DNA of 64,000 nucleotides from Mycolicibacterium baixiangningiae (lineage in GTDB: Bacteria > Actinomycetota > Actinomycetes > Mycobacteriales > Mycobacteriaceae): NCBI RefSeq assembly GCF_016313185.1, contig NZ_CP066218.1:6076001-6140000 (forward strand), written 5' to 3'. Shown piece by piece: positions 16,507 through 53,352 of this stretch. The translations under genes were made by a program, and so were the position numbers. How positions within the stretch are numbered: position 1 is the first letter of the stretch; each line of letters starts with the position of its first letter. A model generated the notes under the pieces. It searched no databases. It saw nothing but the letters and a program-made list of their open reading frames with translations, and was not told the origin of the DNA.

Positions 16507-16593
16507 TGTCGAGATGCAGCGAAGATTGACAGGACTCGCCTGCCTACTTTGACAAGATTTCGGCGTGTCGCGGGAGTTGCTAATCTTCGCTGC
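16507..16593 (+). repeat. Left end with transposase-site-like repeats
   Basis: The terminal repeat TGTCGAGATGCAG continues into GCGAAGATTGACAGG. A second site, CTACTTTGACAAG (16544-16556), places TTGACA 23 bp further in. An inverted copy of the terminal motif, AATCTTCGCTGC (16582-16593), mirrors GCAGCGAAGATT (16516-16527) perfectly. Multiple spaced sites are expected for TnsB binding. Confidence 0.8.
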
Positions 16594-16702
16594 AAAAGCG
16601 CTGGGTTTAAATTGTTCGTTAGTCGTGCTAGGCGCCGGGATCGAGATGCCGTCCGAGCCCTGCGCAGGAACCAGAAGCCGACGCAGACTGTGCGATTCGC
16701 GT

Positions 16703-18472
16703 CTAGGGCGGAGCCTGGTTGAACTCAGGCGCATCCTTCGCGAGAACCGACTTCGTGGGTGCCCCGTTCGCTTCCTCGATCAGATGAACAAGCTCCAAAA
16801 CTCGCGCGTGAAGATCCAGCCAGTCCAGACCAGACTTCCATTGAGCGACGACCTCCTTCGCAACCTTGATCTTGTCTGCCTTTCGTGTTTCGTTGGCGTC
16901 GACGGGTTTCATCACGTTCGACCAATGATTCACCGGCGCCGTGAAATCGATGTTTGGGTGCAGTGCGCTCAGAACGGTCGTCAATCGCTCTGGCGGCACG
17001 TAGTTTTCGATGTACCTGCATCCGGTGATCCAGGCGACTCCCGGTGCAGCCATCTCGTCTCGCACGCGCCGCTTGGCTTTACCGATCCCGCTGTTGCCGG
17101 TTTCCCGGTCGCTGTCCATGACGACGGCCAAATGACGATTGAGGCGCCGGAGGCTGATAAACTCTCCAACCTCGGGATCGTCCGGCGACAGATGATTCAG
17201 CAGACGACCGCCGTAGAACATGATCGAAAAGTCGATGTTCTCTCGCAGTGCCGGGTTCACGATGCTGATCCAGTGAGCCAAGTAGATGCGATCCGACGGC
17301 CCTTCAACCCAAATGACACAGTTGGTCTGCAAGAGGTCGCTGGGCCGGTACCCAAGGTCATAGCAAACGGCGCTCAGCTCGGCCGGATTGCCCGCGTAGT
17401 CAAGTGCCGAGCCACCGGTGGTGTAGGTCGTGTGGAACACCGAGGCGATGTCGGAATCGAGCATATGGGCTGAATGCGTCGCGATCAGATACTGGTTGGT
17501 CGTGTTCTCGTATAGATAGCGCAACAGCTTTCGCTGCAGGAGTGGATGTAGGTGCACCTCGGGTTCTTCCATGCAAACGAGGGTGTTCGTCTCGATCGTC
17601 GCTGCCGCAGCGAGAATCACTACCTGCGCGACACCGGAGCCCAAGTGTTCTAACGGGAGCAGGCGTCCCTGCCGTCGCACGTTGAGTTCAGTGTTCGACT
17701 GCGGCACCTCCAACCGTGCAGTCTCGTCCTCCAGCACCGTCTGGACGAATTTTCTGATGTCGGCGAACCGCTCGCGGTCGCCATCTTTGGCGAGCAGCGG
17801 GTTCTGCAGTTCACCCAACCGTCTTATTAGTCCGATGCCACTGAGGGCCTGGTCGTCGTCGATAGGATCATCCCCGACCGTTTCCGCAATTCGCCGTGAC
17901 GCCTGTACGAACCTCACCTTGGGCCAGGTCACTGTAGGTGCGAGCACGCGGGTCAAGAACTCCAGCGCGTTCGTTCGGCTATCGCTGGAGTAACTGCCTC
18001 TCGTCTGAAAGTACTGGTCGTTGACGCCGAACACATCGGTCATTAAACCGGCCTGACGGTCGAGAGTGACAGCGCCGTTTCGCGCGTCCTCCTGAGACCA
18101 GTACAGCCATACCGATCCGTCCTGTCGGATGTCGAGGGCCTCGCTCCCCATTACCGCTTCAACGAGATTGGCGGCCGTCGATTGCTGGCGTTCCAGATCA
18201 AGCTTCTCGAGAACCTTGTTGGTGGCTGTGTCAAGGTCGCCGAGTCGTAGTGCAATCTGGAAGTGACCCATCGGAGCATTTCGTGGGACATCGAGATCCG
18301 CCGGAGCTTCCGTAGTCAGGGCGTGAAGTCGTTGCGCGACCCGTAGCACGTTGGACTTACCGCTGTTGTTCTGTCCGGCGATCAAGTTGATCTTGCTCAT
18401 CGGATCGATGACTTGAAAGTCACCGAAGAAGCTGCGGAACCCTTGAAAGCCAAAACCAGTCAGCAACTGCAC
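16703..18472 (-). CDS. OLD-family ATPase/TOPRIM nuclease (candidate defence)
   Basis: Protein of 589 residues in the overcoming-lysogeny-defect family. The N-terminal ABC/SMC-type ATPase has Walker A GQNNSGKSN (33-41), the signature-like LGSGVAQVV near 280, Walker B VCMEEPEVHLHP near 302 and the H-loop ATHSAHML near 333. The C-terminal TOPRIM domain shows the acidic WVEGPSDR (near 390) and VVMDSDRE (near 450) segments that bind metal in OLD and GajA nucleases. Start GTG 18472. It is last in a minus-strand set with a PD-(D/E)XK nuclease and a DUF3644-like gene; no UvrD-like GajB partner is present, so this is not a standard Gabija system. Location at the left tip of a Tn7-like element fits a phage-defence cargo. 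Confidence 0.85.
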   Translation of the reverse strand: MQLLTGFGFQGFRSFFGDFQVIDPMSKINLIAGQNNSGKSNVLRVAQRLHALTTEAPADLDVPRNAPMGHFQIALRLGDLDTATNKVLEKLDLERQQSTAANLVEAVMGSEALDIRQDGSVWLYWSQEDARNGAVTLDRQAGLMTDVFGVNDQYFQTRGSYSSDSRTNALEFLTRVLAPTVTWPKVRFVQASRRIAETVGDDPIDDDQALSGIGLIRRLGELQNPLLAKDGDRERFADIRKFVQTVLEDETARLEVPQSNTELNVRRQGRLLPLEHLGSGVAQVVILAAAATIETNTLVCMEEPEVHLHPLLQRKLLRYLYENTTNQYLIATHSAHMLDSDIASVFHTTYTTGGSALDYAGNPAELSAVCYDLGYRPSDLLQTNCVIWVEGPSDRIYLAHWISIVNPALRENIDFSIMFYGGRLLNHLSPDDPEVGEFISLRRLNRHLAVVMDSDRETGNSGIGKAKRRVRDEMAAPGVAWITGCRYIENYVPPERLTTVLSALHPNIDFTAPVNHWSNVMKPVDANETRKADKIKVAKEVVAQWKSGLDWLDLHARVLELVHLIEEANGAPTKSVLAKDAPEFNQAPP

Positions 18473-18680
18473 CCATATATCTCAGCAGACAGAGCATGTA
18501 GGCGTCCACAAAACTAGACTGCCAAGCCCTGCTCATAACGCGTTGATGACGAGCGGGCCAGCGCATCATGGGTCATTCAGCGAAAGGATGCGTTCTTGTC
18601 GCGCTGCCAAAGGGTCCGACACCAACGGTAGGCACTATTCTTGGTCGGATCGCGTGCAAGCGGTCGAGTGGTGCTGTCTC

Positions 18681-20198
18681 CTACTCGCCTTCGTAAATCC
18701 CGAACGTCGGAAATGGGTAGGTATTCCAGGCATTTTCAAGAATGCTGTTCGGTCTGTTGCTGTGCAGGCGATCATCGTGAATGGGTAATGCGGTGCCGAC
18801 AGCGTGGTTATCAAGGACCTCTAGGAGACGATCTTCGATTGTGGCGCCATGCGTCACCCACGCTTCTAATTCACGGGCACTGATCGCCGCCACCGGCACG
18901 TTCTGCAGATGGCCAGCCGACAGCGTGGCACCGTGCTTCTCGACGAGGTAGGCGTTCCCGCCGTAGATTGGCTCGGCAGACACGACTATTGCGAGTAGTG
19001 GCCGGTCTGACGGAATGTGTTCGAACTCAGGTCTTTTGGAGGCCAATTGCTCGATTGAACGTCCAAGCTGTTCGTATGCCTTGTCCACCGCGCGGGCGAG
19101 TTCAGGGAAGAGTGCAGGGCCGCCCGCGCGGGCCTCAAGACTGAGACGTTTGAGTTTGCACTCGATGATGAGCACCAGACCCGGCAGAACGACGAACCAG
19201 TCGACGCTCTTCTTGTCCCGCCGGGGTCCGTAGCTGAGCTCGGGATGCACTTCGGCACCGTCGATCAGACGTAGTTGTCGTCCGACGTAATGCTCGAACA
19301 GATATCCAAGGTCCGTCGTGAACGCGCGGTCGTAGCGCACCAAACCTGGATAGTAGAGCCCTCCTGGTGTCACCGTCCGCATGATCAGACGCGGTGCCGG
19401 CGCCACGGTGTCGCCGTTTGTCAGCTCCACGAACGGCGTCCGCGCCAGCGGGTTGTAGTCGAACTTCGCGAGTTCTTTAATTCCGTGCGACCACTTAGCA
19501 AAGTCGTCCTGAAACTCCGCCTGCGTCGCCGTGAGACGACCTGCTGCTGCCTCGATGTTGCCGCGTGGATACAGCTCAAGAACATCCTTGAAGTTGTCCT
19601 GGTCGAGCCATGAACTGTCGTAGAGTCCGCCGTTCCGGTTGGCTCCGACCTGTAGAACGAACGTCGCGGCGATGGCATCGCCCAGCGGCACGCCGCCGAG
19701 TACCTCCGCCAAGGCGGACTCGGAGATCACTTTCGTGTCGACGTCCTTAAGTCCCTCAATCATGAGGGCATGGGAGCGCGCCAGCTCTTCGTAAATAGGC
19801 TCCTGCCAGGGGAATTGCTCGTAGAGAATCGGGGTAACGAGAGAGATAAGGACCCCTGGATCGCCTGGAGCGGGGTCCCGCGGAACGTCGGCATCGAAGA
19901 ACTTCTGCAGCAGAACGCGGATCCCATCGTCCGTGACAGCCTTGTCTCGGTGCTCGTTGCCGTGTAGCAGGGACTCGCGCGCAATCGCCGCGAGACCCCA
20001 CGGCGGGCATCGGCGCTTCACGTCGTCGGAGTACGGCGGCTCCCCCAAGGCCGCGGAGATCCGAGCGATCGTGGGAACGAGCTCGCTCGGTCGATAAGCG
20101 CGACAAGCCTGCACGAACTCGTTGAAGTTTCTACTCCATCGCGGCTGTGCCATCCAGTAAGGGTATTTAGTGGTGCCGACGAGGCAGACAAGGAACAC
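18681..20198 (-). CDS. PD-(D/E)XK nuclease-domain protein (candidate defence)
   Basis: Protein of 505 residues with no family I can name. The N-terminal ~300 residues are mixed helical, with no motif recognised. A restriction-endonuclease-like core follows: VHPELSYGPRR, then SVDWFVVLPGLVLIIECKLKR with Asp near 333 and the E-C-K pair at 346/348, the classic D...ExK arrangement. The C-terminal part has LLAIVVSAEPI as a further core strand. The start may instead be ATG 20153 (MAQPRWSRNF). It lies 67 bp behind the DUF3644-like gene and 208 bp before the OLD-like gene. Predicted role: the DNA-cleaving or sensing partner in a defence operon; this is inference from motif and location. Confidence 0.75.
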   Translation of the reverse strand: MFLVCLVGTTKYPYWMAQPRWSRNFNEFVQACRAYRPSELVPTIARISAALGEPPYSDDVKRRCPPWGLAAIARESLLHGNEHRDKAVTDDGIRVLLQKFFDADVPRDPAPGDPGVLISLVTPILYEQFPWQEPIYEELARSHALMIEGLKDVDTKVISESALAEVLGGVPLGDAIAATFVLQVGANRNGGLYDSSWLDQDNFKDVLELYPRGNIEAAAGRLTATQAEFQDDFAKWSHGIKELAKFDYNPLARTPFVELTNGDTVAPAPRLIMRTVTPGGLYYPGLVRYDRAFTTDLGYLFEHYVGRQLRLIDGAEVHPELSYGPRRDKKSVDWFVVLPGLVLIIECKLKRLSLEARAGGPALFPELARAVDKAYEQLGRSIEQLASKRPEFEHIPSDRPLLAIVVSAEPIYGGNAYLVEKHGATLSAGHLQNVPVAAISARELEAWVTHGATIEDRLLEVLDNHAVGTALPIHDDRLHSNRPNSILENAWNTYPFPTFGIYEGE

Positions 20199-20265
20199 GC
20201 CCCCGGTCTGACCGGCGAGGACAACACCTGGGTGAGCACGTCCTCGAAACGTGTTCGTCAGTTGC

Positions 20266-21288
20266 CTACTTAATTGCTGCTACTGCGTCGTATACCTCCT
20301 GGTCAGACAGCTTCCTCTTTAGATAGGCGACCCACGCCGGGGTGTATACGTACTTGCCCACAAGTTGGTTCCAGTAGCAAAACTGGGTCTTGGTCTTGAA
20401 CTTATCGGCTGCCCCGGTTGCGGGACGGACGTCGAAGTACTTCCACGCTTGGGTGTGCATGTGCATAGTGAACTCGCGATCGGTCTCGGCGTTGACCTGC
20501 TCAACGACTGCCCCCGGTAGAAACTCGTCGACACCGCCGATAGGCACCGTGCGGTCACGGATGATGGTTCTTACTTGATCCATCACGCTCTTCTGCTCCT
20601 TGGTGAGTTCGTCCTCATGTACGAACGTCATCGCGGCGTCAGCGTCGGTCTTGGCACCCTTATGCGGAATCAGATAGACCTTGAAATCGAAGCGCTGGTC
20701 GGCCGCGATGTCAGGTTCGACGGAGGTGTCAAAGTCCTGCACCCACTCCAGCACTCCCCTAGGGATACGGGCGCGCACCTTCTTGAGCGAGGCGACAGCA
20801 TCGCCGGTGATCGACGATAGGAACAGTGGAAATCGCAGCTCGTCGGCAAGTCCTTCATCCTCCCCGAATAACTCGACGACCGTCTGCTCGTAATTGAGAA
20901 GGTAAGCCTGGGTCCTACCGGCGACCAGCGCAGCGATGTCTCGCTCGTAGCGGTGCTCAATGATATTTCGAAGTCCGGTGAAGAAGCCGAGGTTGGCTTT
21001 TCGAGGATCATTCTCTGCGAAGTGCTCCTTGGCCAGATCGTGCAGACCGCGATGCTTGTATCCACCATCAGGGTGTTTTATCCTCCAACCTCGCTCATCG
21101 CGGATATGAATGTCCCGGCCACTCTTCTCAAAGTGCGCCTGCAATAACTTGAGCCAACCCATCGACATGTGAACGATGAATGCTTCGAGCTGTCGTTCCG
21201 TACCCGATCTGTTGTAGAGATCAACCGCGAGCCGCACCTCGTTCTTCGAGTCCTGGAGGACATACCACCACCGCGGCTTCCTTGGCAT
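20266..21288 (-). CDS. DUF3644-like protein (candidate defence)
   Basis: Protein of 340 residues. The N-terminus RLAVDLYNRSGTERQLEAFIVHMSMGWLKLLQAHF, followed by LRNIIEHRYER near 120, resembles DUF3644 proteins, which have a HEPN-like helical domain and are often found in phage-defence islands. The R-N-x-x-E-H element inside that helix could be a HEPN-type RNase motif (usually R-x4-6-H); this is tentative. The C-terminal third (TKTQFCYWNQLVGKYVYTPAWVAYL) looks like a winged helix. ATG 21288 is the first gene of the three-gene minus-strand set. The IS21 element begins 214 bp upstream, so the native promoter may still be intact. Confidence 0.65.
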   Translation of the reverse strand: MPRKPRWWYVLQDSKNEVRLAVDLYNRSGTERQLEAFIVHMSMGWLKLLQAHFEKSGRDIHIRDERGWRIKHPDGGYKHRGLHDLAKEHFAENDPRKANLGFFTGLRNIIEHRYERDIAALVAGRTQAYLLNYEQTVVELFGEDEGLADELRFPLFLSSITGDAVASLKKVRARIPRGVLEWVQDFDTSVEPDIAADQRFDFKVYLIPHKGAKTDADAAMTFVHEDELTKEQKSVMDQVRTIIRDRTVPIGGVDEFLPGAVVEQVNAETDREFTMHMHTQAWKYFDVRPATGAADKFKTKTQFCYWNQLVGKYVYTPAWVAYLKRKLSDQEVYDAVAAIK

Positions 21289-21501: not shown

Positions 21502-21571
21502 TGTTGACGACGGTTGAAAATCCGGCCAGTCGCGACGGATGAAAAGTAGGCCACCCAACCAGATTGGATGG

Positions 21572-22813
21572 GTGATCTCCTTGGAAGACTGGGCCTTGAT
21601 CCGGCACCTTCACCGCAGCGAAGGGCTATCGCAGCGGGCCATCGCACGGCAACTCGGTATCGCGCGTGACACCGTGGCCGGGGCGCTGGCCAGTGATGAT
21701 CCACCGAAGTACGAGCGGGCCTCGACGCCGTCGGCGATCAACGAAGTGGAACCGCGGATCCGCGCGTTCTTGTCGGCCTATCCGACGATGTCGGCGACGG
21801 TGCTCGCCGAGCGGGTCGGGTGGACCGGTTCGATCTCGTGGTTCCGGGAAAGGGTCCGGGCGATCCGCCCGGAATACCTACCTGCTGATCCGGTGGACCG
21901 CCTCGAGCATCCACCGGGGCGGGCGATCCAGTGCGACCTGTGGTTCCCGGCACCCAAGATCGCGGTCGGGTTCGGCCAGGAGGCGATGCTGCCGGTGCTG
22001 GTGATGGTCGCGGCGTTCTCCCGGTTCATCGCCGCGGTGATGCTGCCGTCGCGCCAGACCATGGACCTGGTGGCCGGGATGTGGCAGCTGCTCGCGGGCA
22101 ACTTCACCGCGGTGCCTCACGAGTTCTGGTGGGACAACGAGGCCGGGATCGGACGCCGCGGCCGGTTGACCGATCCGGTCACCGCGTTGATGGGCACCCT
22201 CGGGTCGCGGCTAGTCCAACTCAAACCCTATGACCCCGAATCCAAGGGCATCGTCGAGCGAGCCAACCGCTATCTGGAAACCTCATTCTTACCCGGGCGC
22301 AGCTTCACCTCACCACATGATTTCAATGATCAACTGAGTCAATGGCTTCCGAACGCCAACGCTCGCAGGGTGCGAGTGTTGGATGGCCGTCCGGTCGACT
22401 TCCTGAATGCCGACCGAGCCCAGATGCTGGCCCTGCCGCCCGTGCCGCCGACCGTCGCGACGATGACCTCGGTGCGGTTGGGACGCGACTACTACGTCCG
22501 GGTGGCCGGCAACGACTACTCCGTCGACCCGAGTGCGATCGGCCAACTCGTCGACGTGTGCACCACCCTGGCCCAGGTGAGGGTGAGCCGGGCGGGGCGC
22601 GTTCTGGGGGCTCACCAGCGCTGCTGGGCGGCGCGACAAGCCCTCACCGACCCCGCCCACGTCGCCACCGCTGCGGCGTTGCGCCGCCAGTTCCAGAGCG
22701 GCCCACCACCGCCGCCGGGTGATCACCTGGTGCGGGATCTGTCCGATTACGACCGTGCGTTCGGTGTGGACTTCGCCACGGGCACAGCGACTTCCGATGG
22801 CGAGGTGGCGTGA
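21572..22813 (+). CDS. istA: IS21 transposase IstA
   Basis: DDE transposase of about 413 residues. The N-terminal helix-turn-helix (LSQRAIARQLGIARDTVAGAL) binds the ends, and the rve core carries Asp in IQCDLWFPAPK, Asp in FWWDNEAGIG and Glu in GIVERANRYLE. The frame is open from ATG 21539, but that codon lies in the terminal repeat; GTG 21572 before the first helix is preferred. Stop TGA overlaps the istB start by 4 bp (GTGA), so translation is coupled. Confidence 0.93.
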   Translation: MISLEDWALIRHLHRSEGLSQRAIARQLGIARDTVAGALASDDPPKYERASTPSAINEVEPRIRAFLSAYPTMSATVLAERVGWTGSISWFRERVRAIRPEYLPADPVDRLEHPPGRAIQCDLWFPAPKIAVGFGQEAMLPVLVMVAAFSRFIAAVMLPSRQTMDLVAGMWQLLAGNFTAVPHEFWWDNEAGIGRRGRLTDPVTALMGTLGSRLVQLKPYDPESKGIVERANRYLETSFLPGRSFTSPHDFNDQLSQWLPNANARRVRVLDGRPVDFLNADRAQMLALPPVPPTVATMTSVRLGRDYYVRVAGNDYSVDPSAIGQLVDVCTTLAQVRVSRAGRVLGAHQRCWAARQALTDPAHVATAAALRRQFQSGPPPPPGDHLVRDLSDYDRAFGVDFATGTATSDGEVA

Positions 22814-23598
22814 TCATGGCTGCGGATCCGATCAAGGACGTCCTGCACTACGCCCAAGCCCTCAAAGCGCCACGCATCCGCGATTCCGCCGCCCGCCTCG
22901 CCGAGCAAGCCCGCGACGCCAGCTGGACCCACGAAGAATATCTGGCGGCGGTGCTCTCACGTGAGGTCGCCGCCCGCGAAGCCTCCGGCGCGGCAACCCG
23001 CATCCGCTCGGCTGGATTCCCGACACGGAAGTCCTTGGAGGACTTTAACTTCGATCATCAACCCGCACTCAACCGGGACATGATCGCCCACCTGGGCACC
23101 GGGGCGTTCTTGGCCAAGGCCCGCAACGTAGTGCTGCTCGGTCCGCCCGGCACCGGCAAGACCCATCTCGCCATCGGGCTGGCCATCAAAGCGGCCCAGA
23201 CCGGGCATCGCATCGCGTTCGCCACCGCCGTGGACTGGGTCGCCCGGCTCAAGGCGGCCCATAACGCCGGCCGACTCCCCGCCGAGCTGGCGAAACTGCG
23301 CCGCATCGGCCTGCTCGTCGTCGACGAGGTCGGCTACATCCCCTTCGAACAGGACGCTGCGAACCTATTCTTCCAACTGGTCTCCAGCCGCTACGAACAC
23401 GCCTCGCTGATCTTGACCTCGAACCTGCCCTTCGCCCGCTGGGGCGACGTTTTCGGCGACCAAGTGGTGGCCGCGGCGATGATCGATCGCATCGTGCACC
23501 ACGCCGACGTCCTGACCCTCAAAGGCTCCAGTTACCGACTCAAGGACACCGGAATCGACACCTTGCCCTCCGCTAGAGCGGACAACACGGCACAATAA
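22810..23598 (+). CDS. istB: IS21 helper ATPase IstB
   Basis: AAA+ ATPase of 262 residues, related to DnaC and DnaA, that selects the target and remodels DNA for IstA. Walker A LLGPPGTGKTHLAIGLA lies near residue 112 and Walker B LLVVDEVGYIP near 169; sensor-1 is LILTSNLPFARW. Start GTG 22810 (or ATG 22816) overlaps istA. The C-terminus RLKDTGIDTLPS is the usual ending. Complete. Confidence 0.95.
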   Translation: MIMAADPIKDVLHYAQALKAPRIRDSAARLAEQARDASWTHEEYLAAVLSREVAAREASGAATRIRSAGFPTRKSLEDFNFDHQPALNRDMIAHLGTGAFLAKARNVVLLGPPGTGKTHLAIGLAIKAAQTGHRIAFATAVDWVARLKAAHNAGRLPAELAKLRRIGLLVVDEVGYIPFEQDAANLFFQLVSSRYEHASLILTSNLPFARWGDVFGDQVVAAAMIDRIVHHADVLTLKGSSYRLKDTGIDTLPSARADNTAQ

Positions 23599-23851
23599 CC
23601 ACGACCACGTGGCCTACTTTTCACCGTCGCCTCTGGCCTAGTTTTCGACCGTCGTCAACAGGAACCGCACGCAGTGTCTGCCCCAACTCAGAGGAACAGT
23701 GGACGTCAGTCGCCACTCGGGCCGGGCTGCGGATGATGGATAACCGGGATTATCCACGGCTCTTCGTCGAAGCGCCCGAGGATCCTGAGTTCGGTCGACT
23801 CGCCGTCGAAGTCGCTGGTGATCGCACCTAACACTATGAAATAGTTGGGTT

Positions 23852-26230: not shown

Positions 26231-26239
26231 CTTAGAGAG

Positions 26240-27307
26240 ATGAGGGTGGGAATCGTCGGCGGCGGCTTTGCAGGACTGGCGGCGGCGATTGCGTTTCGGC
26301 AAGGCGGTCACGACGTCAGCATTTTCGAGAGATCTGCTGGTCCATCGGTAACTGGTGGCGCAATCTCCCTCGCCCCGAACGCGCTCACGTGTCTGTCAGC
26401 TCTCGGTGTTCGCGCACGTGTCGTGACGGAACCCTGGTCGCGCATGCCGGCCACCGTACGCACGCCTGAGGGCCGCGTTCTCGTCCGACGAACGCTCGCT
26501 CAGCTCACCGGTGGAGACCACTACGCCGCCGTGCCGCGCACTCAACTGCTCACCTGGCTGGCCGAGAAGCTTCCCCCGGATTGCCTGCACTATTCAAGCG
26601 CCGTCACAGGGATCCATACTGACGGTGTTCTCGTCGTGGGCGAGGCAGAACAGCGGTTCGATCTGGTCATCGGTGCCGACGGAACACGTGGCGTTGCCAG
26701 AAAATTACTGTGGCCGGATGCGGGACCGCCGACGGTCACCGGCATCAAAGGGTGGGCCTGGATCGTTGACCGTGAACTGGACACCGGGTTCGGGCCAATC
26801 TGGGGCTGCACCACTGATTTTGGGATCTTGCCGCTCGCCGATGGGCGCACCTACGTCTACGGCGGAACCCAGGACCCGGGAACCGACCTGCGCGCCTACC
26901 GCCACTGGCCGGCACCACTCCCGACGCTGATCGACGCCGCCGATCCCGACCGCATCGCCACTCCGGAAATTTTCGAAGCCCGACCACCCCACCATCTCGT
27001 ACGCGGCAAGGTCGTCCTGATCGGCGATGCGGCTCATACGATGCGCCCCACGTTCGGCCAAGGTGCCGCGCTGGCGATGGAAGACGCCCTCACCCTTGTC
27101 AAGTGTGGAACAGAGGGCCTGGAGAAACGCCGGTTACGCATCCTGGCGCTGTACACCGCTTCAAAGGCCGGATCATTCTTCGCGACCCCACGCCTTCGCG
27201 TTGCGGAGAAAGCTCGCAACCTCACTCTGAGGCTCACGCCCGACCCCCTTTTCGGCCTCATGGCGGGGTCAGTCAGCTACTGGCGACCACCGGCCCGCAT
27301 CGCATAA
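26240..27307 (+). CDS. FAD-dependent monooxygenase (UbiH/PHBH-type)
   Basis: Flavoprotein hydroxylase of 355 residues. The N-terminal Rossmann motif GIVGGGFAGLAAAIAF (residues 4-19) ends with the FAD-ribose acid in VSIFERSAG; the DG motif is VIGADGTRGVARK (near 138) and the GD motif is VVLIGDAAHTMRPTFGQGAALAMEDA (near 258-283). All FAD contacts are present and no membrane anchor is seen. Family members hydroxylate aromatic substrates or, as in TetX and Rox, inactivate antibiotics. A truncated close paralogue lies 2.3 kb downstream. A dyad next to the start suggests repression by a local regulator. Confidence 0.88.
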   Translation: MRVGIVGGGFAGLAAAIAFRQGGHDVSIFERSAGPSVTGGAISLAPNALTCLSALGVRARVVTEPWSRMPATVRTPEGRVLVRRTLAQLTGGDHYAAVPRTQLLTWLAEKLPPDCLHYSSAVTGIHTDGVLVVGEAEQRFDLVIGADGTRGVARKLLWPDAGPPTVTGIKGWAWIVDRELDTGFGPIWGCTTDFGILPLADGRTYVYGGTQDPGTDLRAYRHWPAPLPTLIDAADPDRIATPEIFEARPPHHLVRGKVVLIGDAAHTMRPTFGQGAALAMEDALTLVKCGTEGLEKRRLRILALYTASKAGSFFATPRLRVAEKARNLTLRLTPDPLFGLMAGSVSYWRPPARIA

Positions 27308-27480
27308 GGCTGCAGCACAACGGCGCTCACATCATCAGCGATTGGCTCGCCTGGAAGCGATAGTCGATCAGATACCGATCTTTCGGCATCGGTTGAAAAG
27401 GTTGACATTGGACGGCAGCATCACCGGGAGTGGCGTCGTGAACGAGTGCGCGTGACCTCGGGTGGACAGCCCCTTGTGTC

Positions 27481-28543: not shown

Positions 28544-28553
28544 TGTCGGGGCG

Positions 28554-38109: not shown

Positions 38110-38201
38110 TGTGCTGAGTCGGTCGATCGGCCGCAGTGGGCCCGGCTTCCGCCCCCCTCTTTCACAACTCCACAGATATATGAAGCATTTGTTACAGTCA
38201 A

Positions 38202-45337: not shown

Positions 45338-45595
45338 TCACGCGTTCCGGACGAGTTCGGCGACGGAGACCTCCAGCGCGTCGGCGATATCGAACAGTCG
45401 CTCGTACAGCAGACCTCGGCGGCCTGACTCAACCGCGACCAGCAGCGTTCGATCCACCCCGCAGTACTCCGCCAGCCGCTCCTGCGTCAGGCCCCGCTCG
45501 GTTCGCACCCTCCTGATGTTCTGCCCGACGGCACGTCGTCGCTGCTCCCATTTGTCGACGCGGCGTGGATCATGCTGGTTCGGACTGGTGGGCAC
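45338..45595 (-). CDS. XRE-family transcriptional regulator
   Basis: Protein of 85 residues: a single helix-turn-helix of the Cro/C1 type (GQNIRRVRTERGLTQERLAEYCGVDRTLLVAVESGRRGLLYERLFDIADALEVSVAELV). GTG 45595. It is divergent from tniQ1 across 59 bp, so it may repress transposition genes, as small regulators do in some Tn7-like elements. Confidence 0.82.
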   Translation of the reverse strand: MPTSPNQHDPRRVDKWEQRRRAVGQNIRRVRTERGLTQERLAEYCGVDRTLLVAVESGRRGLLYERLFDIADALEVSVAELVRNA

Positions 45596-45654
45596 CTAGA
45601 CAAGAAATGGGCACAAAAGGCCAAAAGTCTGTAGCAGTAGTTCTACATTGCTGG

Positions 45655-47382
45655 ATGAGTTCCACCGCAGCCCACGCAGCTGGACCAAGCGGGAAGGCTG
45701 ACGCGCCCGCCAGGCGCGAACTCCTGCCCTCTCGAGTCACCCTTCAGCGCGATGAATCCCTGGACGGCTTCCTGGAGCGGCTCGCTCGCGCGAACGGTCT
45801 GCGCTCACGCCAACTCCTGCGCGTGCTGGCCTCGCTGGCCGGCCCGAGCATCCCGACGACAGCATTCCTCATGTTCGAGGTCGACCCGGCGTTCCTCGAT
45901 CGGTTGGCGCGGATCAGCGGCGTCTGTCCTGAGGAGCTGCAAAACGCAACGCTCGCCCGCTTTGGCGGGGGCTTACCACTGCAGTTGGATGGGCTCAATC
46001 CGCGGGAGCGCACGAGCTTTCGTCAGGTTGTCATGCAGGGGTGGTTTCCGCAGTTCGGCTCTGCGATATGCCCGGAATGCCTTGCCAGCGATGGCTTGTG
46101 GCAACTGGCGTGGCGGCTCCCTATCATCGCCGCCTGCGTTCGTCATCGGGTCCTACTCACGCCGCGTTGCGCCGGCTGCGGCAAGCGGTTCCGCACCCAT
46201 CGCTACGCAACACTGCGACCTATCCTCAGCGCGGCGGAGCCGTGCGGTAACTCGTTGGGCTTGCGCACCCACTGCCACCACCCGGTCACGGCTCACAGTA
46301 GCCAACCTGCGGGCCCCGAAGTCCTCGCTGCGACCTGCGCCATTCAACAGGCAATAGAGGGCTGCCCGACCAAAATGCTCGGGAGCACAACCGACGCCCG
46401 GGTGTACCTGGCTGAACTCCGGCACGTCGCGACCCTGCTGCTTCATCTGTTGTCGAGGTCGGGCGGGGAATCGGCAGTGGCCTGGGGCGAGGAGCTTCAT
46501 CGAGAGGCAGCCACCCGCACGACATCACGTCGCGGCCCGCGGTGGGGCATCACCCCACCCGGCAGCGCGGCGGCGCGAGGCGGCGCACTCGCCGAAGCCC
46601 ACAACATTCTGAGCCAAGACAATGTGCAGGCCGCAGGTGACCGGCTCGCCGGCTGGCTCTGGTTGATCGAGGATCACAACGGCCCCGCGGTCTGGCTCAA
46701 GCAGCGAACCACCCAGACGACCACCACCACGCAGATCATCGATGCCGCGGTGGCTCCACGCCGTCACGTCGGTCGCCGACTGCGCGCTGTCAGCGATGGC
46801 GGCCGCAGCCTCCTGCCCGCGGCGATCCCGCAACTGTTCGACGCCGCTCTCTATGCGGAGCTTTTCGAGGGCATGCTCGGCGGCTACGAGGTGACCGGCA
46901 GAATGTATGTGTCGCTGTGCGTCGTGCGGCTGGTGAGCCCCGCGACCAACTGGTCCGAGGCCGCCTTTCAGCTCAACCTGGATCCGGACATCGGAAGGCG
47001 CACCGCCCGTGCTGCCAGCAACCGAATGCGCGTCACCCCGGCCGCCCTCGAGGAAGCGGTTCGTCAGGCGCACCGTGCGCTCCCCCGCGGCCGTGACTTC
47101 CGTGTACGCGAGTCCCGTGTTCGCGCGCTCGCCGCCAACCCGGTTGCATGGGAGGACTGTTGGCGTGACACGACCTCACCGCGGCGACGGTCAACGTCGT
47201 TGCCGTACGCCGTGACCTGGATGTGGTGTGAGGTGGCACAAGGAACCCTTGACACCAGCCCAGCTTGGGCCGAGGGGCCGACGCCACCGGCGAAGGTGGC
47301 TTACCGCGCCTTCCGCGACAAGCTCCCCGAGGCGTCGAAGGACTTCCTTCGCGCGCTTGTGCTAACCGACGCTATGAGCTGA
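45655..47382 (+). CDS. tniQ: TniQ/TnsD-family target-site protein 1
   Basis: Protein of 575 residues. The N-terminal TniQ domain (LLPSRVTLQRDESLDGFLERLARANG) is followed by zinc-finger pairs: CPECLASDGLWQLAWRLPIIAACVRH and CAGCGKRFR. The long C-terminal part probably binds target DNA, as in TnsD. ATG 45655 is preferred over the longer frame from 45565. It is convergent with tnsC and overlaps it by 11 bp. Because a second TniQ lies at the other end of the tns block, the two may serve different target modes (fixed site versus mobile replicons), but which does which cannot be told from sequence. Confidence 0.88.
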   Translation: MSSTAAHAAGPSGKADAPARRELLPSRVTLQRDESLDGFLERLARANGLRSRQLLRVLASLAGPSIPTTAFLMFEVDPAFLDRLARISGVCPEELQNATLARFGGGLPLQLDGLNPRERTSFRQVVMQGWFPQFGSAICPECLASDGLWQLAWRLPIIAACVRHRVLLTPRCAGCGKRFRTHRYATLRPILSAAEPCGNSLGLRTHCHHPVTAHSSQPAGPEVLAATCAIQQAIEGCPTKMLGSTTDARVYLAELRHVATLLLHLLSRSGGESAVAWGEELHREAATRTTSRRGPRWGITPPGSAAARGGALAEAHNILSQDNVQAAGDRLAGWLWLIEDHNGPAVWLKQRTTQTTTTTQIIDAAVAPRRHVGRRLRAVSDGGRSLLPAAIPQLFDAALYAELFEGMLGGYEVTGRMYVSLCVVRLVSPATNWSEAAFQLNLDPDIGRRTARAASNRMRVTPAALEEAVRQAHRALPRGRDFRVRESRVRALAANPVAWEDCWRDTTSPRRRSTSLPYAVTWMWCEVAQGTLDTSPAWAEGPTPPAKVAYRAFRDKLPEASKDFLRALVLTDAMS

Positions 47383-48412
47383 TGTCTAGGCCACATCCTT
47401 CGTCGGCACGTTTGCTCAGATCCACTTCATCGAGATGGCGAGGCAGGATCTTGTGCGTGCCGTCGACGGTTGCGTTGATCGCCGCCTCGCACAGCAGCGC
47501 TTTGAGGTCTCCGAGATAGCCCTGAGTACGCTCTTGAAGTGCCCCGGCGAGCTCCCTGAACAACTCCTCGGGCTTGCTTCTCGGCAGGTGAGGAGCAAGT
47601 AACTGTTCGAAGTCACGCACAATCACCTGCCAGCCCACACGGTCCTCTTCATCATCGGGACTCTCGACTTTGTAAGGCCCGAAACGACTGAGGCGAAGGC
47701 GGCATGCGATCTGCGGGTCGTTTACCAGGGCCGTGTCTTCTAGATCGGCGCCGATCAGAACTAACGAGACGCCGATCTGACCGAGGCGTGTATTGAGGTG
47801 TTTGATGTGATCGAGCACGTCCCGTCCCGACTTCCAGTTCGTCTTCAGCAGATGAACGTCGTCAACGATGACGACCTGTGTTCGATGTCGTCGCACCGCT
47901 TCCATCGCTGCTGCCGAAATGTCTCGTTTCACCCCGTCCGCGGGCAAGTTGAACACGCCCAGAATGGCCGCATCAACGTCCTTAATCTGGGATGCAGCGT
48001 CGAGGTCGATCCACGCGAGCGGACACAGATCGACTTCGTGCCCGGGTTCGGGGTGGAGGATCGGTCGTCCGTAGGTGTCCAGTTCAGCGCCGTCAATCCA
48101 CATCAGGTACTTCTCGCGTGCCCAACGCATCATCATCGTGCTCTTGCCGGCATAGTTCGGCCCCGAGAGTGCTGGCAGGGTCTTGGCACCTGGTGGTGTC
48201 AGCTTGTTGATTCGTACAGCCTTGGAAATCTCTCTGAAGATCTGATCCACCTCGCTCGTCGGCAAAAACAGGTTCTGCAACCATGCGGTCAGCCTGTCCA
48301 GGTGGTCTTCACGTTCCTGGTCGTTCATCCCCTTCCATTGCCTCACTGTGAGGGGCGCAGGTTCTGATGGAGGTTGCCTCACGCAGTACTCATGCCACAG
48401 TTGCGCGTCCAC
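47372..48412 (-). CDS. tnsC: TnsC/TniB-family AAA+ transposition regulator
   Basis: AAA+ ATPase of 346 residues that links target recognition by TniQ to the transposase. Walker A LSGPNYAGKST at ~82-92, Walker B QVVIVDDVHLL at ~179-189 and sensor-1 VSLVLIGADLED follow the TniB pattern. GTG 48412 lies 3 bp behind the tnsB stop, so they are co-translated. The element has no separate TnsE. Confidence 0.9.
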   Translation of the reverse strand: MDAQLWHEYCVRQPPSEPAPLTVRQWKGMNDQEREDHLDRLTAWLQNLFLPTSEVDQIFREISKAVRINKLTPPGAKTLPALSGPNYAGKSTMMMRWAREKYLMWIDGAELDTYGRPILHPEPGHEVDLCPLAWIDLDAASQIKDVDAAILGVFNLPADGVKRDISAAAMEAVRRHRTQVVIVDDVHLLKTNWKSGRDVLDHIKHLNTRLGQIGVSLVLIGADLEDTALVNDPQIACRLRLSRFGPYKVESPDDEEDRVGWQVIVRDFEQLLAPHLPRSKPEELFRELAGALQERTQGYLGDLKALLCEAAINATVDGTHKILPRHLDEVDLSKRADEGCGLDISS

Positions 48413-48415: not shown

Positions 48416-50557
48416 CTAGATCCCCTCGGGAAGGGGTGGCCAGACTTCCCGCGCCGCCGCCGACCTACGCCTTGCGGGTGGCCGCGCGGGCCGTAGGTGG
48501 TCTTGAACCCGTTGTGCCTCAGCATGATCAATCTTGGCCCGCTCTTCCCGCATCCTGGCCGCGATCAGCTGTTTCTGCAACTTGGGTTTGGCAGGCGTCT
48601 CGGTGATCTGCCCGAGCTCGTCGATGATCTGACGCGTGGCGGAGTGCTTGTTGAGCACCAGGTTCCCCCCGCGGCGGCGAATGCGCTTGAGCGCGAGATT
48701 CACGATGGCCTCGGTCATGGGGGCAACGGTGCGGTCCGAGCCGCGCCATTCGATGGGTTCCACCCGTTTCGTCGCGGGGTCGTGAAACCAAATGCGTGAG
48801 AGGTCCTGTGGGTCATAAAAGAAGGGTGCCGCGCGGTCGCCGGCTCGGAACTGCCCGACCGGCACCGACCGGTAGGGCTCAAGAACTGTCAGAGAGTCAT
48901 ACACCATGTTCTTGAACTCGACGCCGGCGTGACTGATCGTGCCCCACTTGACCGGGAGAAACTGGTAGATCAGATCCGGCTGCTGCGGTACATCGATGCG
49001 CCCGGTGATCTCGGTCATCGCATCCCACAGCTCGAGTGGACACACCCTCGCCGCTTCCTCCCCCGGCAGGATGATGCCCTCGTGCCCATAGCGGTGGTAG
49101 TCCAGCGCGATAAAACGGCACAGATGATCCTGCAGTTGGCGAGCGGTCAACAACGGTTCTTCCGCGACGAGCTTGCCGCGTTGAGAGACATTGCGGCCCT
49201 TGTACCCTGGGATCTGTTGCAAGCCGCGTTGGATGGTTTCGTGCCACCGCTCCACATGCGGGTTGTCGTTCGGCTTTCCGCCACGGTTGAGCATCAGGTC
49301 AATACCCAGCATGATCAGAAGCGCCCGGAACTGCATGCATACGAAGATGGACCCGTGGTCACAGCGAATAGCATCCGGCATCACCGACGGGATCCCGTGC
49401 TCGCCCTGGAGGGTGGTGAAGTTCGGCGAGAGAACACGTTTGCCAACCTGAATGGGTACGCCAGACAAGTCGAGCTGCTCGGGTAGCCCCACCCACCTCC
49501 AGTCTCCGATCGAGGTGCCATCGACCTGCAGAGAAAAAGGCCGACAGATGTCGTAGAGCAACAATCCTGCTTCGAAACCTTTTGCACTTCGCGGGACGAC
49601 GCGTAACGCGAGGACCACCCGGGTCGCCACGTCGATGGCGGTGATGATCTCCACGCTGCACGGGTCGCCGGAGAGAGGGTCGTAGACGAGATTGTCGGCG
49701 CGAGTGACGTCGATGGCGACGACTTGTCCCGGCCGAATCGCCGGGTAGTGCTTCGCACCGGAGACCCTGCGGGACTTGCGACTCCTCTGCGCCCGGGTTG
49801 TGGTTCCTCGCTCCCGCTTGAGGTGAGCGAGGTACTCGCGGGTGATGCGTTCAGGCGCTACAAAGTCATCGATACCATTCTCTTTCAATTGAACTCGGGT
49901 GCGGCGGTCGATCTCTTGATTCGATATGGTCGATCGGTCCCCGTCGAGGGTGTCGACGATCTGGGTTGCCACCTGGCGGTACCGCGAGTCGATCAACTCC
50001 CAGGACTTGCTTTGCCGTGTGCTTCGCTCATCGATCAGAGCGAGGAGGCCGCGCTCCTTGAAGTTACGTACCCAGAGCCTAAGCGTGGAGGGGCTGTACT
50101 GAGCTGGTCGGGTTTCACCATCCTGAAGCCGCCCCCGCACTCTCCGATCAAGTTGTGCCCCAGCATTCAGTTCTGCTGCCATCGCTTTGCAACGTTGGTT
50201 CTCGGACGCTCCGCTCGGGCCGTACGGGGGTCGCGGCTCACCGGGACGTGCAAGACACTGGTGACCATCGCGGTAGCCGGTCAGGATTTCCTGGACGATT
50301 TCCATTTTGAACAGCGCCGCTTCGCGTACGTCGTCTACGAGGGTGTCCCACAGTGGGCGTAGCGAATCAGAAAGCGCACAGACCTCGCCGCCCTCGAGGC
50401 CGCGGATCACGCCGAGCGCCACCCAGCTGACCACCGACGTTTCACCGCAGGAATAGTGCAAAGTGACACCCGCAGCGCCGACTACACCCGTGAGTGCGAA
50501 CCCTCGCTGGGTCAGGACTTTCGTGCCTTCGATCAGGCTGGTACGTCCATCAGACAT
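48416..50557 (-). CDS. tnsB: TnsB/TniA-family DDE transposase
   Basis: Transposase of 713 residues that cuts and joins the element's 3' ends. N-terminal helix-turn-helix region (about 150-250), then an rve core with Asp-283 (VVAIDVTRADN), Asp-400 (AIRCDHGSIFV) and Glu-436 (NPHVERWHETIQRG): a complete DDE triad. A Mu-type C-terminal domain with VYDSLTVLEPYRS follows. ATG 50557 follows GGAGAAGCC; the longer frame to 50716 runs through tnsA. It overlaps the tnsA stop by 8 bp. Confidence 0.93.
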   Translation of the reverse strand: MSDGRTSLIEGTKVLTQRGFALTGVVGAAGVTLHYSCGETSVVSWVALGVIRGLEGGEVCALSDSLRPLWDTLVDDVREAALFKMEIVQEILTGYRDGHQCLARPGEPRPPYGPSGASENQRCKAMAAELNAGAQLDRRVRGRLQDGETRPAQYSPSTLRLWVRNFKERGLLALIDERSTRQSKSWELIDSRYRQVATQIVDTLDGDRSTISNQEIDRRTRVQLKENGIDDFVAPERITREYLAHLKRERGTTTRAQRSRKSRRVSGAKHYPAIRPGQVVAIDVTRADNLVYDPLSGDPCSVEIITAIDVATRVVLALRVVPRSAKGFEAGLLLYDICRPFSLQVDGTSIGDWRWVGLPEQLDLSGVPIQVGKRVLSPNFTTLQGEHGIPSVMPDAIRCDHGSIFVCMQFRALLIMLGIDLMLNRGGKPNDNPHVERWHETIQRGLQQIPGYKGRNVSQRGKLVAEEPLLTARQLQDHLCRFIALDYHRYGHEGIILPGEEAARVCPLELWDAMTEITGRIDVPQQPDLIYQFLPVKWGTISHAGVEFKNMVYDSLTVLEPYRSVPVGQFRAGDRAAPFFYDPQDLSRIWFHDPATKRVEPIEWRGSDRTVAPMTEAIVNLALKRIRRRGGNLVLNKHSATRQIIDELGQITETPAKPKLQKQLIAARMREERAKIDHAEAQRVQDHLRPARPPARRRSAAAREVWPPLPEGI

Positions 50558-51317
50558 GGCTTCTCCGCGATCTCGCTGAGATAGGGGTGTACAAGGTCCA
50601 CTGGGTGCCCATGTCGAGACGCAACTCGCCAGTCCACACCAGATGCCAAACCACCGAGATGTTTTCACCTGTCCCGTCATCGGCGCCGAGAAGCGAGCCC
50701 ACAGTCTGACCGTCACGTTCGGCCATGCGGAGTATTTCCTCCTCGAAGCGGTCCGCCCAGAGAGGTCTGCGACGAAACCCGTGCAACCACAACAAGTTCG
50801 TGCGCTCGGTGGTACTCACTCCTGTGAACACCCGGTAGCGCCAGCCAACCCGGTCACATGCGTGGCGAGTGACGCCACTCTTGGTGCGGAAGTCGTCGTC
50901 TTGCTGCTCCAATGATCTGGCGTCCCACACAGTGACGCTTCCATCCGTGTGCTGGGTCAGGAGGTCAGGAACGTGGCTCACGGAGTCATCGGTCCTCCAT
51001 TCCAAGCGGAACGGTTGAGCGATCAGCAGAACCACATCGGGATCACGATCGAGCTTGCGAACCAAGTCGTGCTCAAGTCCCGACTCCAGATGCAGCACAC
51101 CAGAGTTGGTGTGCGAATATGCCGATACCGGGATATGACGGTTCTTGGACGACGACCGAGGCGTACGGATCGGCGCGAGCTTGTGCAGTGGTGGCGCGCC
51201 TTGAACTTGCCACATCCATCTTGTCTTCACGCCGTCGTGAAACTTCATTACCCATTCGAGATGTAGGACGCCGTCCGATAGAACTCGAACGTTTGTCAAT
51301 GATTTCGTGCGACTCAC
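50550..51317 (-). CDS. tnsA: TnsA-like endonuclease
   Basis: Protein of about 255 residues that in Tn7 cuts the 5' strands, giving cut-and-paste transposition. The N-terminal domain shows the nuclease-like layout E (SGLEHDL, near 82), D (SHVPDLL, near 118) and then VTVWDARS, where Tn7 has x-x-K. The catalytic Lys position reads Arg, which is unusual. The C-terminal part is TnsA_C-like and should contact TnsC. GTG 51317 is chosen because GGAGGT lies 7 bp upstream; the frame continues to 51359. It lies 136 bp behind tniQ2. Confidence 0.8.
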   Translation of the reverse strand: MSRTKSLTNVRVLSDGVLHLEWVMKFHDGVKTRWMWQVQGAPPLHKLAPIRTPRSSSKNRHIPVSAYSHTNSGVLHLESGLEHDLVRKLDRDPDVVLLIAQPFRLEWRTDDSVSHVPDLLTQHTDGSVTVWDARSLEQQDDDFRTKSGVTRHACDRVGWRYRVFTGVSTTERTNLLWLHGFRRRPLWADRFEEEILRMAERDGQTVGSLLGADDGTGENISVVWHLVWTGELRLDMGTQWTLYTPISARSRRSHV

Positions 51318-51453
51318 AGCCTTTACCTCCATTAGGGTTAGGTGCGCCACAATATGCACCTCGGAGGTAGTTCACAGACCGAAATTCGAAAACTAGTATC
51401 AGTTTCTCCATCGGTACGCAGTTTTGCTGCGCACTCGGGCATCTACGTCGCGA

Positions 51454-53202
51454 TTACTGAAAGTTCAACCTCTTGAGCAGTTTTAGAGGGGGATGCCAGT
51501 GCACCGGCTCTGCAACGTCTTGCTGCGCAAGGAACTCGCGAGCGACTTGATCTAGAGCAGTGACGGCGGTACCTGCAAGTCCCGCCCTAAAAGCAGTCAC
51601 GAGTGTGTTCAGTTCCCGTTCGTCCATCTCGGGGTAATCGGACAATGCCAGGTTTGGCGACCCGCTTATTCTTTCGATCAGGTAGCACCTCGTCGCCACC
51701 AGTGAATTTACCATTGGTGGTGAATTTACCAACAATGGTAAATAGGCGCCTTCGGCTAACCGTTGTAGAGGAGCATCGTTGTCAAGCAACATTGAGTAGT
51801 CCAATCGGCGGCGACGGTCGTAGTTGATTTGGCCGCCGGCCTGTTCCAAGAAGTCACTCAGTTCGACCAGCGCAAGACTAACGGGCTTCCACGAGCCGGT
51901 GACGCTCAAAGCCGACAGCTGTTGAGTCAGAAGGCTTGGTCTTACGGCGACTCCTAAGAGTTGTAGGACTTCAGCAACTTTCAGATTCGCAGCGCCCACG
52001 AGGAGGGTCGCGCACGATAACGCCTCGCGCAGGACCACGGTCTTGCGACGACCGGTTAGCAGGCACGATGCCCATTCGGGCCAGATCGCCGCGGGCAGAT
52101 GCGCAGCCTTCTTCTGTATCCGTTTTCGGCCAGACGCAGGTGCGCATGGCATTGCCGTGGCCGTTCGGTATCGGAGTTGCAGCTCGGGGCCCATGCTGTC
52201 ACTGCGCGCTTTCAAGACGATGGCGGCGGCAACTGTGCTATCCCGCGCACAGGACCCAATCTCACCCGAGGCGGCACACGCGTTCTGTCCCTCGACGAAC
52301 CACTGAGCCGCACGCCCGCACTCGCTCACAGTGGCGTTCCGCAGGACCGACAACGCCACCGTAACGCCGACCGCCATATCGATAGCGGATTGTGGCGCTT
52401 TGGCATTCAACGTTCCGCGAGCGGTCGCCGAGACATACTCGACTTCGACTTCGGCGGTTGAGTCTCCCTCTAGCCCCTTGACGCGTAGGGGCCGCACCGA
52501 GGCAGAAGTCAACACCCGATTCGTCAGGCTCCGAACCGCGTCCAGGGCCTCCGGCAACTGCCCCGGGTGCTCACGGAAAACGCCGAAAGTGTTGGCGCCT
52601 GAGTCGATAAAGGTATCGATAGTTCGTTGCGCCCAGGAGAATGCATGATCATTTGGCCATCGCATCGTGGGAACAGCGCCCAGCGGTTGTCCACACCTAC
52701 AGGTGGTCGGAGTAGGTCTACGCCTGTAAGGCTGGGTCAGCCTTTGGTGCTTACCGCACTTCGTACAGAAGTCCACAAGAAGACAGTCGTGTCTTGGACA
52801 CGCAAACGACCAGCCGAGCCGCCAGCGTAGCTGCCACCTCCCGTCTGTCTCGCGTATGCAGGCGGGGCAGAACCGAGACCGAGACAGCGGCCCGAAAGGA
52901 AACTTGGGGTCAAGGCGGTGAGATTCCGGATCCAGCCTCAAGGCCGCTCCGTCGTACCGACTCAGGGTCATAGCCTCGAGAGATTCTGGAGGTACGCCCG
53001 TGACGGCTGCTAGCGACTGTGATTGTGCCGGCGACAGCCACCTCGTCCAAGTCGACATTGCGGCGGCGGGCAAATTAGCAATCGTTGCGACGCCGCCGAC
53101 GGTCATGCCCGTGGCCAGCGCGGTGGCCTCCAACCACGATTCGAGCGATTCACCCTTAAGTGGTTGCACCCGAACCGGCAGTAGGCGACGGTCGACTCTC
53201 AC
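51454..53202 (-). CDS. tniQ: TniQ/TnsD-family target-site protein 2
   Basis: Protein of 582 residues beginning with a TniQ domain (LLPVRVQPLKGESLESWLEATALATG), followed by two zinc-finger pairs (CPACIRETDGRWQLRWRLG, then CPRHDCLLVDFCTKCGKH). Only weakly similar to TniQ1 outside these parts. GTG 53202 is the first gene inside the dnaB-proximal end. As the larger, site-proximal TniQ it is a good candidate for recognising the dnaB 3' end; this is inference. Near 51703-51745 the gene carries an AT-rich stretch with direct and inverted repeats. Confidence 0.87.
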   Translation of the reverse strand: MRVDRRLLPVRVQPLKGESLESWLEATALATGMTVGGVATIANLPAAAMSTWTRWLSPAQSQSLAAVTGVPPESLEAMTLSRYDGAALRLDPESHRLDPKFPFGPLSRSRFCPACIRETDGRWQLRWRLGWSFACPRHDCLLVDFCTKCGKHQRLTQPYRRRPTPTTCRCGQPLGAVPTMRWPNDHAFSWAQRTIDTFIDSGANTFGVFREHPGQLPEALDAVRSLTNRVLTSASVRPLRVKGLEGDSTAEVEVEYVSATARGTLNAKAPQSAIDMAVGVTVALSVLRNATVSECGRAAQWFVEGQNACAASGEIGSCARDSTVAAAIVLKARSDSMGPELQLRYRTATAMPCAPASGRKRIQKKAAHLPAAIWPEWASCLLTGRRKTVVLREALSCATLLVGAANLKVAEVLQLLGVAVRPSLLTQQLSALSVTGSWKPVSLALVELSDFLEQAGGQINYDRRRRLDYSMLLDNDAPLQRLAEGAYLPLLVNSPPMVNSLVATRCYLIERISGSPNLALSDYPEMDERELNTLVTAFRAGLAGTAVTALDQVAREFLAQQDVAEPVHWHPPLKLLKRLNFQ

Positions 53203-53352
53203 TTTGCACAGCTACTTTGACAAGGCCGTCGGGCCGATAGGGCCTATATCGACTTGACCTGCAGTTAAGCGTCGAGGAAAGTCAGGTTCACTGACGATGT
53301 TGTTTAACAATCAATGCACGCTTGTCAATCATCACTGCATCTCGACATGTGG
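53203..53352. repeat. Right end with spaced transposase-site-like repeats and target duplication
   Basis: Read inward from 53347 the end is TGTCGAGATG, then CAGTGATGATTGACAAG (53321-53337), CATTGATTGTTAAACAAC (53299-53316) and CAGTGAACCTGAC (53281-53293), spaced 21 and 23 bp. CTACTTTGACAAG (53212-53224) repeats a left-end site in opposite orientation. TGTGG (53348-53352) is the target duplication, immediately followed by the dnaB stop. Confidence 0.85.

Follow-up and report, generated by a model that had tools for sequence, protein, structure and literature searches.

A Tn7-like transposon behind dnaB of Mycolicibacterium baixiangningiae points to the dnaB 3' end as a probable shared landing site

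In the chromosome of Mycolicibacterium baixiangningiae (contig NZ_CP066218.1) a Tn7-like element of 36,841 bp ends directly behind the essential replication gene dnaB, which raises the question whether this position reflects a single chance insertion or a site to which such elements are directed. The element spans positions 16507-53347 of the window, as we call the whole stretch of 64,000 nucleotides that was analysed (positions 6,076,001 to 6,140,000 of the contig). As a single element it is ordinary for mycobacteria; the interesting part is the site, as Tn7-like elements seem to share the 3' end of dnaB as a landing site and dnaB is apparently an undescribed attachment gene for a known kind of transposon. 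With high confidence we propose that the transposon uses the dnaB 3' end as its attachment site, with TniQ1, one of its two TniQ proteins, as a TnsD-type selector. This proposal starts from features that were observed directly: the ends, the target duplications, the gene set, the position and orientation at dnaB and the recurrence in relatives.

The left end TGTCGAGATGCAGCGAAGATTGACAGG starts at position 16507 and the right end, on the opposite strand, at 53347. Compared as 27-mers, the terminal inverted repeats (left, TGTCGAGATGCAG..., 16507-16533, plus strand; right, 53321-53347, minus strand) are identical in 24 of 27 bases, and the runner-up among the 27-mers of both strands of the whole window reaches 18/27. 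A 13-mer scan of the window finds the terminal sequence perfect at the two element ends only; six further places match with two mismatches, and 100 shuffles gave, for all matches together, a mean of 2.2 and a maximum of 6. Both sides are flanked by the target-site duplication TGTGG (16502-16506 and 53348-53352), the right copy lying immediately behind the dnaB stop codon (53355-53353). Inverted TGT...ACA ends together with a 5-bp target duplication are found in a second case, the element of genome G229. A preliminary description of the locus had given the same inverted ends, the same duplication and the same size, and all three hold. Motifs of the GATTGACA and TTTGACAAG types recur at both ends, as candidate TnsB-binding repeats.

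Two transposon families have to be distinguished in what follows. Family 1, a name of this analysis, comprises the close relatives of the element and ends in TGTCGAGATGCA, while family 2 comprises distant relatives with a TnsB identity of 26-33%, the ends of which at dnaB mostly read TGTAGG(T/G)TCTCA, with variants. Their co-occurrence bears on whether the 36.8 kb are one transposon at all, as the outer ends might stem from different insertions at one spot and enclose a fused array. If insertion at one position were repeated, every round would copy TGTGG; the interior holds an end of the other family, the six imperfect 13-mers resemble the terminus, and 57 kb outside the element lies a decayed family-1 left end with the same orientation. 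However, no further 27-mer of the window exceeds 18/27 and the two ends share the duplication as well as 24/27 terminal bases, and a fused array is judged improbable compared with a single transposon.

Within these ends, the reading frames of tniQ1-tnsA-tnsB-tnsC and of tniQ2 are all open. The DDE transposase gene tnsB (48416-50557, minus strand) has its start set at ATG 50557 by alignment, the longest frame beginning at 50716; by Pfam alone the protein is weakly recognized (rve 0.0038, under cut-off), but D283, D400 and E436, the latter two separated by 35 residues, are invariant in 13 aligned sequences and Tn6677 TnsB is matched in PDB (1.2e-4). The product of tnsC (47372-48412, minus strand), a TniB-like AAA+ regulator, matches TniB in Pfam (5.9e-9) and ShTnsC (2.7e-5) and displays the Walker A and B motifs GPNYAGKS and VVIVDD. 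The gene tnsA (50550-51359, minus strand) encodes the endonuclease subunit, which stays under the Pfam cut-off (15.6 versus 26.5 bits) but exceeds that of the NCBIfam model NF033179, TnsA_like_Actin (143 versus 110 bits); by sequence alone no relative was found in PDB, while its structure model is closest to Tn7 TnsA. The TniQ domain PF06527 is present in two element proteins, encoded by tniQ1 (51454-53202, minus strand), the candidate dnaB-site selector, the predicted structure of which matches TniQ and TnsD chains, and by tniQ2 (45565-47382, plus strand; Pfam TniQ 1.9e-22), which according to the tree discussed below is of the type that adjoins tnsC in family-1 relatives. Ends, domains and structure models thus support the delimited element with a complete transposition gene set, DDE and Walker motifs and two tniQ genes of the preliminary description, and place the element within the known Tn7-like kind.

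TnsA and TnsB would cut and join the element ends, with TnsC as the AAA+ regulator, and the element would move by cut-and-paste. The composition of TnsA might suggest cointegrate formation and resolution instead. In an alignment of 121 sequences (drawn from the best 120 of 201 homologues, with the protein of the window among the 120), position 148, which we take to be the site of the catalytic lysine in Tn7 TnsA and Tn7-type endonucleases, is R in 112, K in eight and H in one, and a resolvase-like gene is present within the element. On the other hand, no change is seen at E92, E96 or D132 across this alignment, the TnsA model is closest to Tn7 TnsA, and the resolvase gene belongs to the cargo, beside an IS110 gene and approximately 14 kb from tnsC. 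Cointegrate formation with resolution is given little credence relative to cut-and-paste transposition.

The gene beside the insertion point, dnaB (53353-55944, minus strand; Pfam DnaB_C, DnaB and LAGLIDADG_3), contains an intein-like insert and lies with its last codons next to the right end of the element. It had been named correctly as a flank beforehand, but recurrent targeting of its 3' end had been missed. Among 20 stretches from relatives with a TnsB identity of at least 57%, dnaB precedes the transposon end in 12, and the end starts at 12-17 bases past the conserved codons AA(C/T)ATGGC(G/C) in 11 of them; at locus L047, dnaB is present and the first bases of the transposon end are altered. 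The remaining eight stretches have no dnaB in view, in some cases owing to contig ends. In a sample of 396 genomes out of a larger genus, TnsB is matched at E<=0.001 in 135 and at an identity of at least 53% in 25, the own genome included, by which such an element is neither rare nor exceptional in mycobacteria, whereas the preliminary description had called it notable; the idea that the insertion itself is a novelty for mycobacteria was rejected on the same counts. Of the 135 genomes with a TnsB match, 134 also have one to the last 60 residues of DnaB. Among the 150 TnsB matches listed of a larger number, 43 are found downstream of dnaB at 0.8-12 kb, without exception on its strand, and none lies within 15 kb upstream. 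What speaks against dnaB as the attachment site is that 13 of 28 close TnsB rows, again among the matches listed, are not near dnaB on their own contig. Seven of these 13 are on contigs without a mapped dnaB, and in three of the genomes concerned (G013, G081 and G154) dnaB is in fact adjoined by a family-1 end, which lies on a different contig or at a distance of 22 kb from tnsB. As a separate observation, the intein-like insert of dnaB has a LAGLIDADG match, and in relatives one or two such places interrupt the dnaB alignment, so that dnaB is seemingly used by two kinds of selfish DNA.

Independently of TnsB, the junction itself can be searched for, as ATGGC followed by a gap of 6-30 bases and a transposon end. 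In the 396 genomes this pattern has 57 family-1 and 77 family-2 matches, versus three and two for the backward-pattern controls. Matches without an early in-frame stop (25/57 and 11/77) were set aside, although at least three of them (G154 C13, G030 C47 and G181 C39) do adjoin a dnaB-type gene. With the stop required, 32 family-1 and 66 family-2 genomes are left, 97 of 396 in total with one holding both, and in those 97 genomes a dnaB-like ATGGC with a stop is followed, as judged by pattern, by an end of either family at 8-28 bp. Of 98 kept junctions, 52 could be checked against mapped dnaB genes and 51 of these coincide, the exception being G274; the other 46 are in genomes without a protein-mapped dnaB. 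The mean distance from ATGGC is 16.6 bases (sd 2.2) for family 1 and 18.4 (sd 3.6) for family 2. Somewhat at odds with a fixed ATGGC anchor, the family-1 spread is as small when measured from the stop codon (sd 2.2), so that the distances do not resolve the anchor point inside dnaB.

Several side observations belong to these junctions. At locus L094 (genome G055) a family-1 end lies 15 bp behind the dnaB codons and G055 has no TnsB match; other genomes of the junction scan resemble it and may hold relics or elements with a lost or changed transposase. The left ends of the elements of G282, G020, G011, G234, G241 and G341 were not found in the stretches examined. A search of the named loci for end pairs with matching duplications gave one pair, L172, taken as chance.

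A simpler account would regard the region behind dnaB as a permissive hotspot in which harmless insertions are kept without any sequence-specific selector. The region behind the own dnaB indeed has little in common with its counterpart in three relatives and contains relic ends. This account is nevertheless barely credible in view of the one orientation of all 43 near elements among the matches listed, the near-constant distance to dnaB in two families with different ends, and the use of a plasmid dnaB and of the dnaB of other actinobacterial families. Targeted insertion at the dnaB 3' end accommodates these regularities. The codons proposed to be recognized survive each insertion, and later elements of the same or the other family could therefore land beside dnaB and push the older ones outwards.

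Genome G229 provides an example, in which two families are stacked at dnaB. Its family-1 element of 14,940 bp has GCGCC on both sides, and a family-2 end begins seven bases past the family-1 left end. When the flanks are joined with one GCGCC, the family-2 end comes to lie 18 bases past ATGGC, which is the distance most often seen in family 2 (20/66). As removal of the family-1 element restores a canonical family-2 junction, most likely an older family-2 element was at dnaB first and family 1 landed between the two.

With two TniQ proteins at hand, the question arises which of them reads dnaB. A tree of 68 of 70 TniQ rows (two rows shorter than 330 aa were left out) divides into two groups. 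One, of 24 rows, comes from family 1 throughout; 21 of its rows are of the TniQ2 type and three of a third type. In the other, of 44 rows, family-1 proteins of the TniQ1 type are joined by every family-2 row. As the family-2 loci were chosen for their position at dnaB, the tree is not an independent test. Locus L052, where TniQ1 is divergent and TniQ2 present, sits 18 bp behind a gene read by eye as a short-chain dehydrogenase. Tree and L052 point to TniQ1 as the dnaB selector and to TniQ2 as a constant partner or second selector. Conversely, TniQ2 could read dnaB and TniQ1 serve another target class, as family-1 loci have TniQ2-type proteins both at dnaB and away from it, and as L040, L045 (viewed as far as its contig reaches) and L119 (viewed over 8 kb) sit at dnaB with TniQ2 and no TniQ1-group protein in the stretch viewed. 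Yet family 2 lands at dnaB too with none of its TniQ rows in the TniQ2 group, and L052 possesses TniQ2 but adjoins another gene, which renders the exchange of roles rather unlikely. Apart from these three loci, the assignment of TniQ1 is weakened by the occurrence of TniQ1-group proteins in elements away from dnaB, whereby the tree alone is no proof, and by L035, whose TniQ1 is identical to that of the dnaB-borne L034 and which is nevertheless located elsewhere, on a 440-kb contig. At L035 (genome G164), two family-1 right ends at 4179 and 9678 lie 5.5 kb apart in one orientation and not at dnaB, the second belonging to an element very like the dnaB-borne one in G234.

Taken with position, orientation and distance, the tree suggests that TniQ1, as a TnsD-like protein, most likely binds the 3' end of dnaB, while TniQ2 probably serves a second target class. 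TniQ1 would bind the conserved last dnaB codons, and insertion would occur at a near-constant distance behind them, with the tns end towards dnaB and dnaB kept intact. For Tn7, PMC2918618 gives the last 36 bp of glmS as the binding site of TnsD, with insertion approximately 25 bp downstream of it; the geometry at dnaB is similar. If the Tn7 spacing of +23 to +58 is transferred, the predicted footprint of the selector would cover 53373-53408 (minus strand).

Does the site extend beyond the genus? Scanning named genomes yielded 41 loci, the mycobacterial share of which largely duplicates the genus sample. The dnaB 3' end is contained in 22 of them, with the terminal sequence recognized 10-20 bp past dnaB in 19. 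These dnaB-borne loci include three of six from Gordonia and nine of 16 from more distant actinobacteria, namely Cellulomonas humilata, Phycicoccus, Knoellia, a Micrococcales, Kineosphaera, Nostocoides, Humibacillus, Brevibacterium and Piscicoccus. Several large mycobacterial plasmids carry their own dnaB, and a family-2 element, annotated with a TnsA-like protein, a Mu-type transposase and an ATP-binding protein, lies behind the dnaB of the 304-kb plasmid pJCM12272 of Mycolicibacterium alvei; family-2 ends are also located behind second dnaB-type copies in G030 (C47) and G181 (C39). TnsB matches occur in 433 plasmid records, all below 60% identity, with one close copy (57%) on pGKT2 of Gordonia sp. 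KTR9; tblastn found no TnsB relatives in viral contigs. The pGKT2 copy, the tnsB of which is split by an IS3, does not fit the pattern, as no dnaB is present in the 33 kb viewed. As plasmids possess their own dnaB, one selector could serve a chromosomal safe haven as well as plasmid transfer. That the dnaB 3' end is a general attachment site of Tn7-like elements in Actinomycetes, for at least two families, with one TnsD-type selector serving chromosome and plasmids, is put forward tentatively, as the less probable side of the question; if true, one recognized gene does what Tn7 does with two pathways.

How does the element relate to known systems? The Tn5053/Tn402 family combines TniQ with a TniB-like ATPase and is not known to have a TnsA; the element described here shares the former two and differs in possessing TnsA. 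With Tn7 of E. coli, the TnsD/attTn7 pathway of which attaches at glmS, it has TnsA, TnsB, TnsC, a TniQ/TnsD protein and the 5-bp duplication in common, as well as the one orientation and near-constant distance behind the 3' end of a conserved gene (PMC2918618). It differs in abutting dnaB instead of glmS, in the extra tniQ2 and in a very low sequence similarity. A 2021 survey reports a TnsB clade dominated by Actinobacteria without an experimentally characterized member (PMC8649781); the shared trait is the TnsA_like_Actin match of TnsA. Other TniQ/TnsD selectors likewise combine a TniQ core with a target gene of their own, and among the attachment sites named there are glmS, comM, tRNA genes and parE (PMC10293859; PMC11406308). 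The string dnaB is absent from the main texts of these two papers, and the strings dnaB and mycobact from that of PMC8649781. In the literature covered, a dnaB attachment site for Tn7-like elements was not found; supplements and most subscription papers lie outside this scope, and an earlier report is possible.

The interior of the element, on the other hand, is not undisturbed as had been stated before, as it contains an IS21 copy, an IS110 gene and at least one family-2 transposon end. The IS21-family insertion (istA, istB; 21502-23660, plus strand) has inverted ends and GGAAC flanking both sides, and the IS110-family transposase gene (31673-32905, plus strand) is followed by the serine resolvase-like gene (32921-33511, minus strand). 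End-sequence matches border a stretch at 34567-39703. The end at 39703 (plus) is clear, with 53 of 61 aligned bases identical to L117, and is the one firm family-2-like end inside the element; that at 34567 (minus) is likely, with one mismatch, whereas 34573 (plus) and 39686 (minus) have two mismatches each and are near chance level taken singly. The ends at 34567 and 39686 share 26 of 34 bases, and 34573 is supported by its location alone. Family-2 12-mers in the window number, observed versus expected from a Markov model, 6 versus 3.2 with two mismatches, 3 versus 0.4 with one and 1 versus 0.0 with none. As the five bases outside 34573 differ from those outside 39686, the stretch is a relic or rearranged unit at best, and no transposition gene was seen in it. 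It contains genes for an Emb-type arabinosyltransferase (34795-38331) and a TetR-type regulator (38202-38825). Emb proteins are the targets of ethambutol, and the cargo protein is 42-46% identical to three host Emb proteins encoded at C1:5462013-5471761.

At the left end, three minus-strand genes (16703-21288) resemble, by sequence, a possible defence operon. They encode an AAA/OLD-like ATPase as a possible defence protein (16703-18472; Pfam AAA_21 1e-19; AriA/GajA-type PADLOC matches, listed without a cut-off), a weakly GapS1-like protein (18681-20198; NCBIfam antiphage_GapS1 5e-9, 35 bits, under the cut-off of 320; no Pfam match) and a DUF3644 protein of the PADLOC candidate defence family PDC-S19 (20266-21288; 1.7e-83). 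The lone Cas-like PADLOC match in the element is a weak one of the second protein to Csx1 (0.002); no Cas family was found among the 29 element open reading frames (Pfam, E<=0.1) and no Rfam match at gathering scores, a dedicated search for CRISPR arrays not being part of this. Elsewhere in the cargo, 300 bp at the start of a gene of the flavin adenine dinucleotide-dependent monooxygenase type are repeated 2.3 kb away with 88% identity (26239-28852).

In a search for an exact empty site of this genome, the flank beyond the left end (15900-16506) matches the 100 relatives sampled mainly within an IS fragment, and the approximately 275 bases adjoining the end have a single weak 31-base match in that sample; the closest of these relatives share 90% of the dnaB 3' DNA with this genome. 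The genes behind dnaB in G009, G028 and G031 (20-36 kb) are not found in order within the 133 kb behind the own dnaB, two lone distant matches being the yield of this comparison. The decayed family-1 left end mentioned above lacks the terminal bases (C1:6035227-6035299, or L002:1501-1573; 88% identity over 73 bp), and a family-2-like end is located approximately 340 bases past it, at C1:6035637.

With respect to the biology of these bacteria, the dnaB site could help to explain the patchwork DNA with probable defence genes behind the own dnaB. If the proposed targeting is true, dnaB joins glmS, parE, comM and tRNA genes among the genes at which Tn7-like elements attach, and does so in a phylum from which, according to the 2021 survey, no such element had been characterized experimentally (PMC8649781). 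As a dnaB junction is recognized by pattern in 97/396, a quarter of the sampled genomes, many natural cases are available for testing the idea. Furthermore, the dnaB site might lend itself to a system for site-specific insertion in high-GC Gram-positive bacteria.

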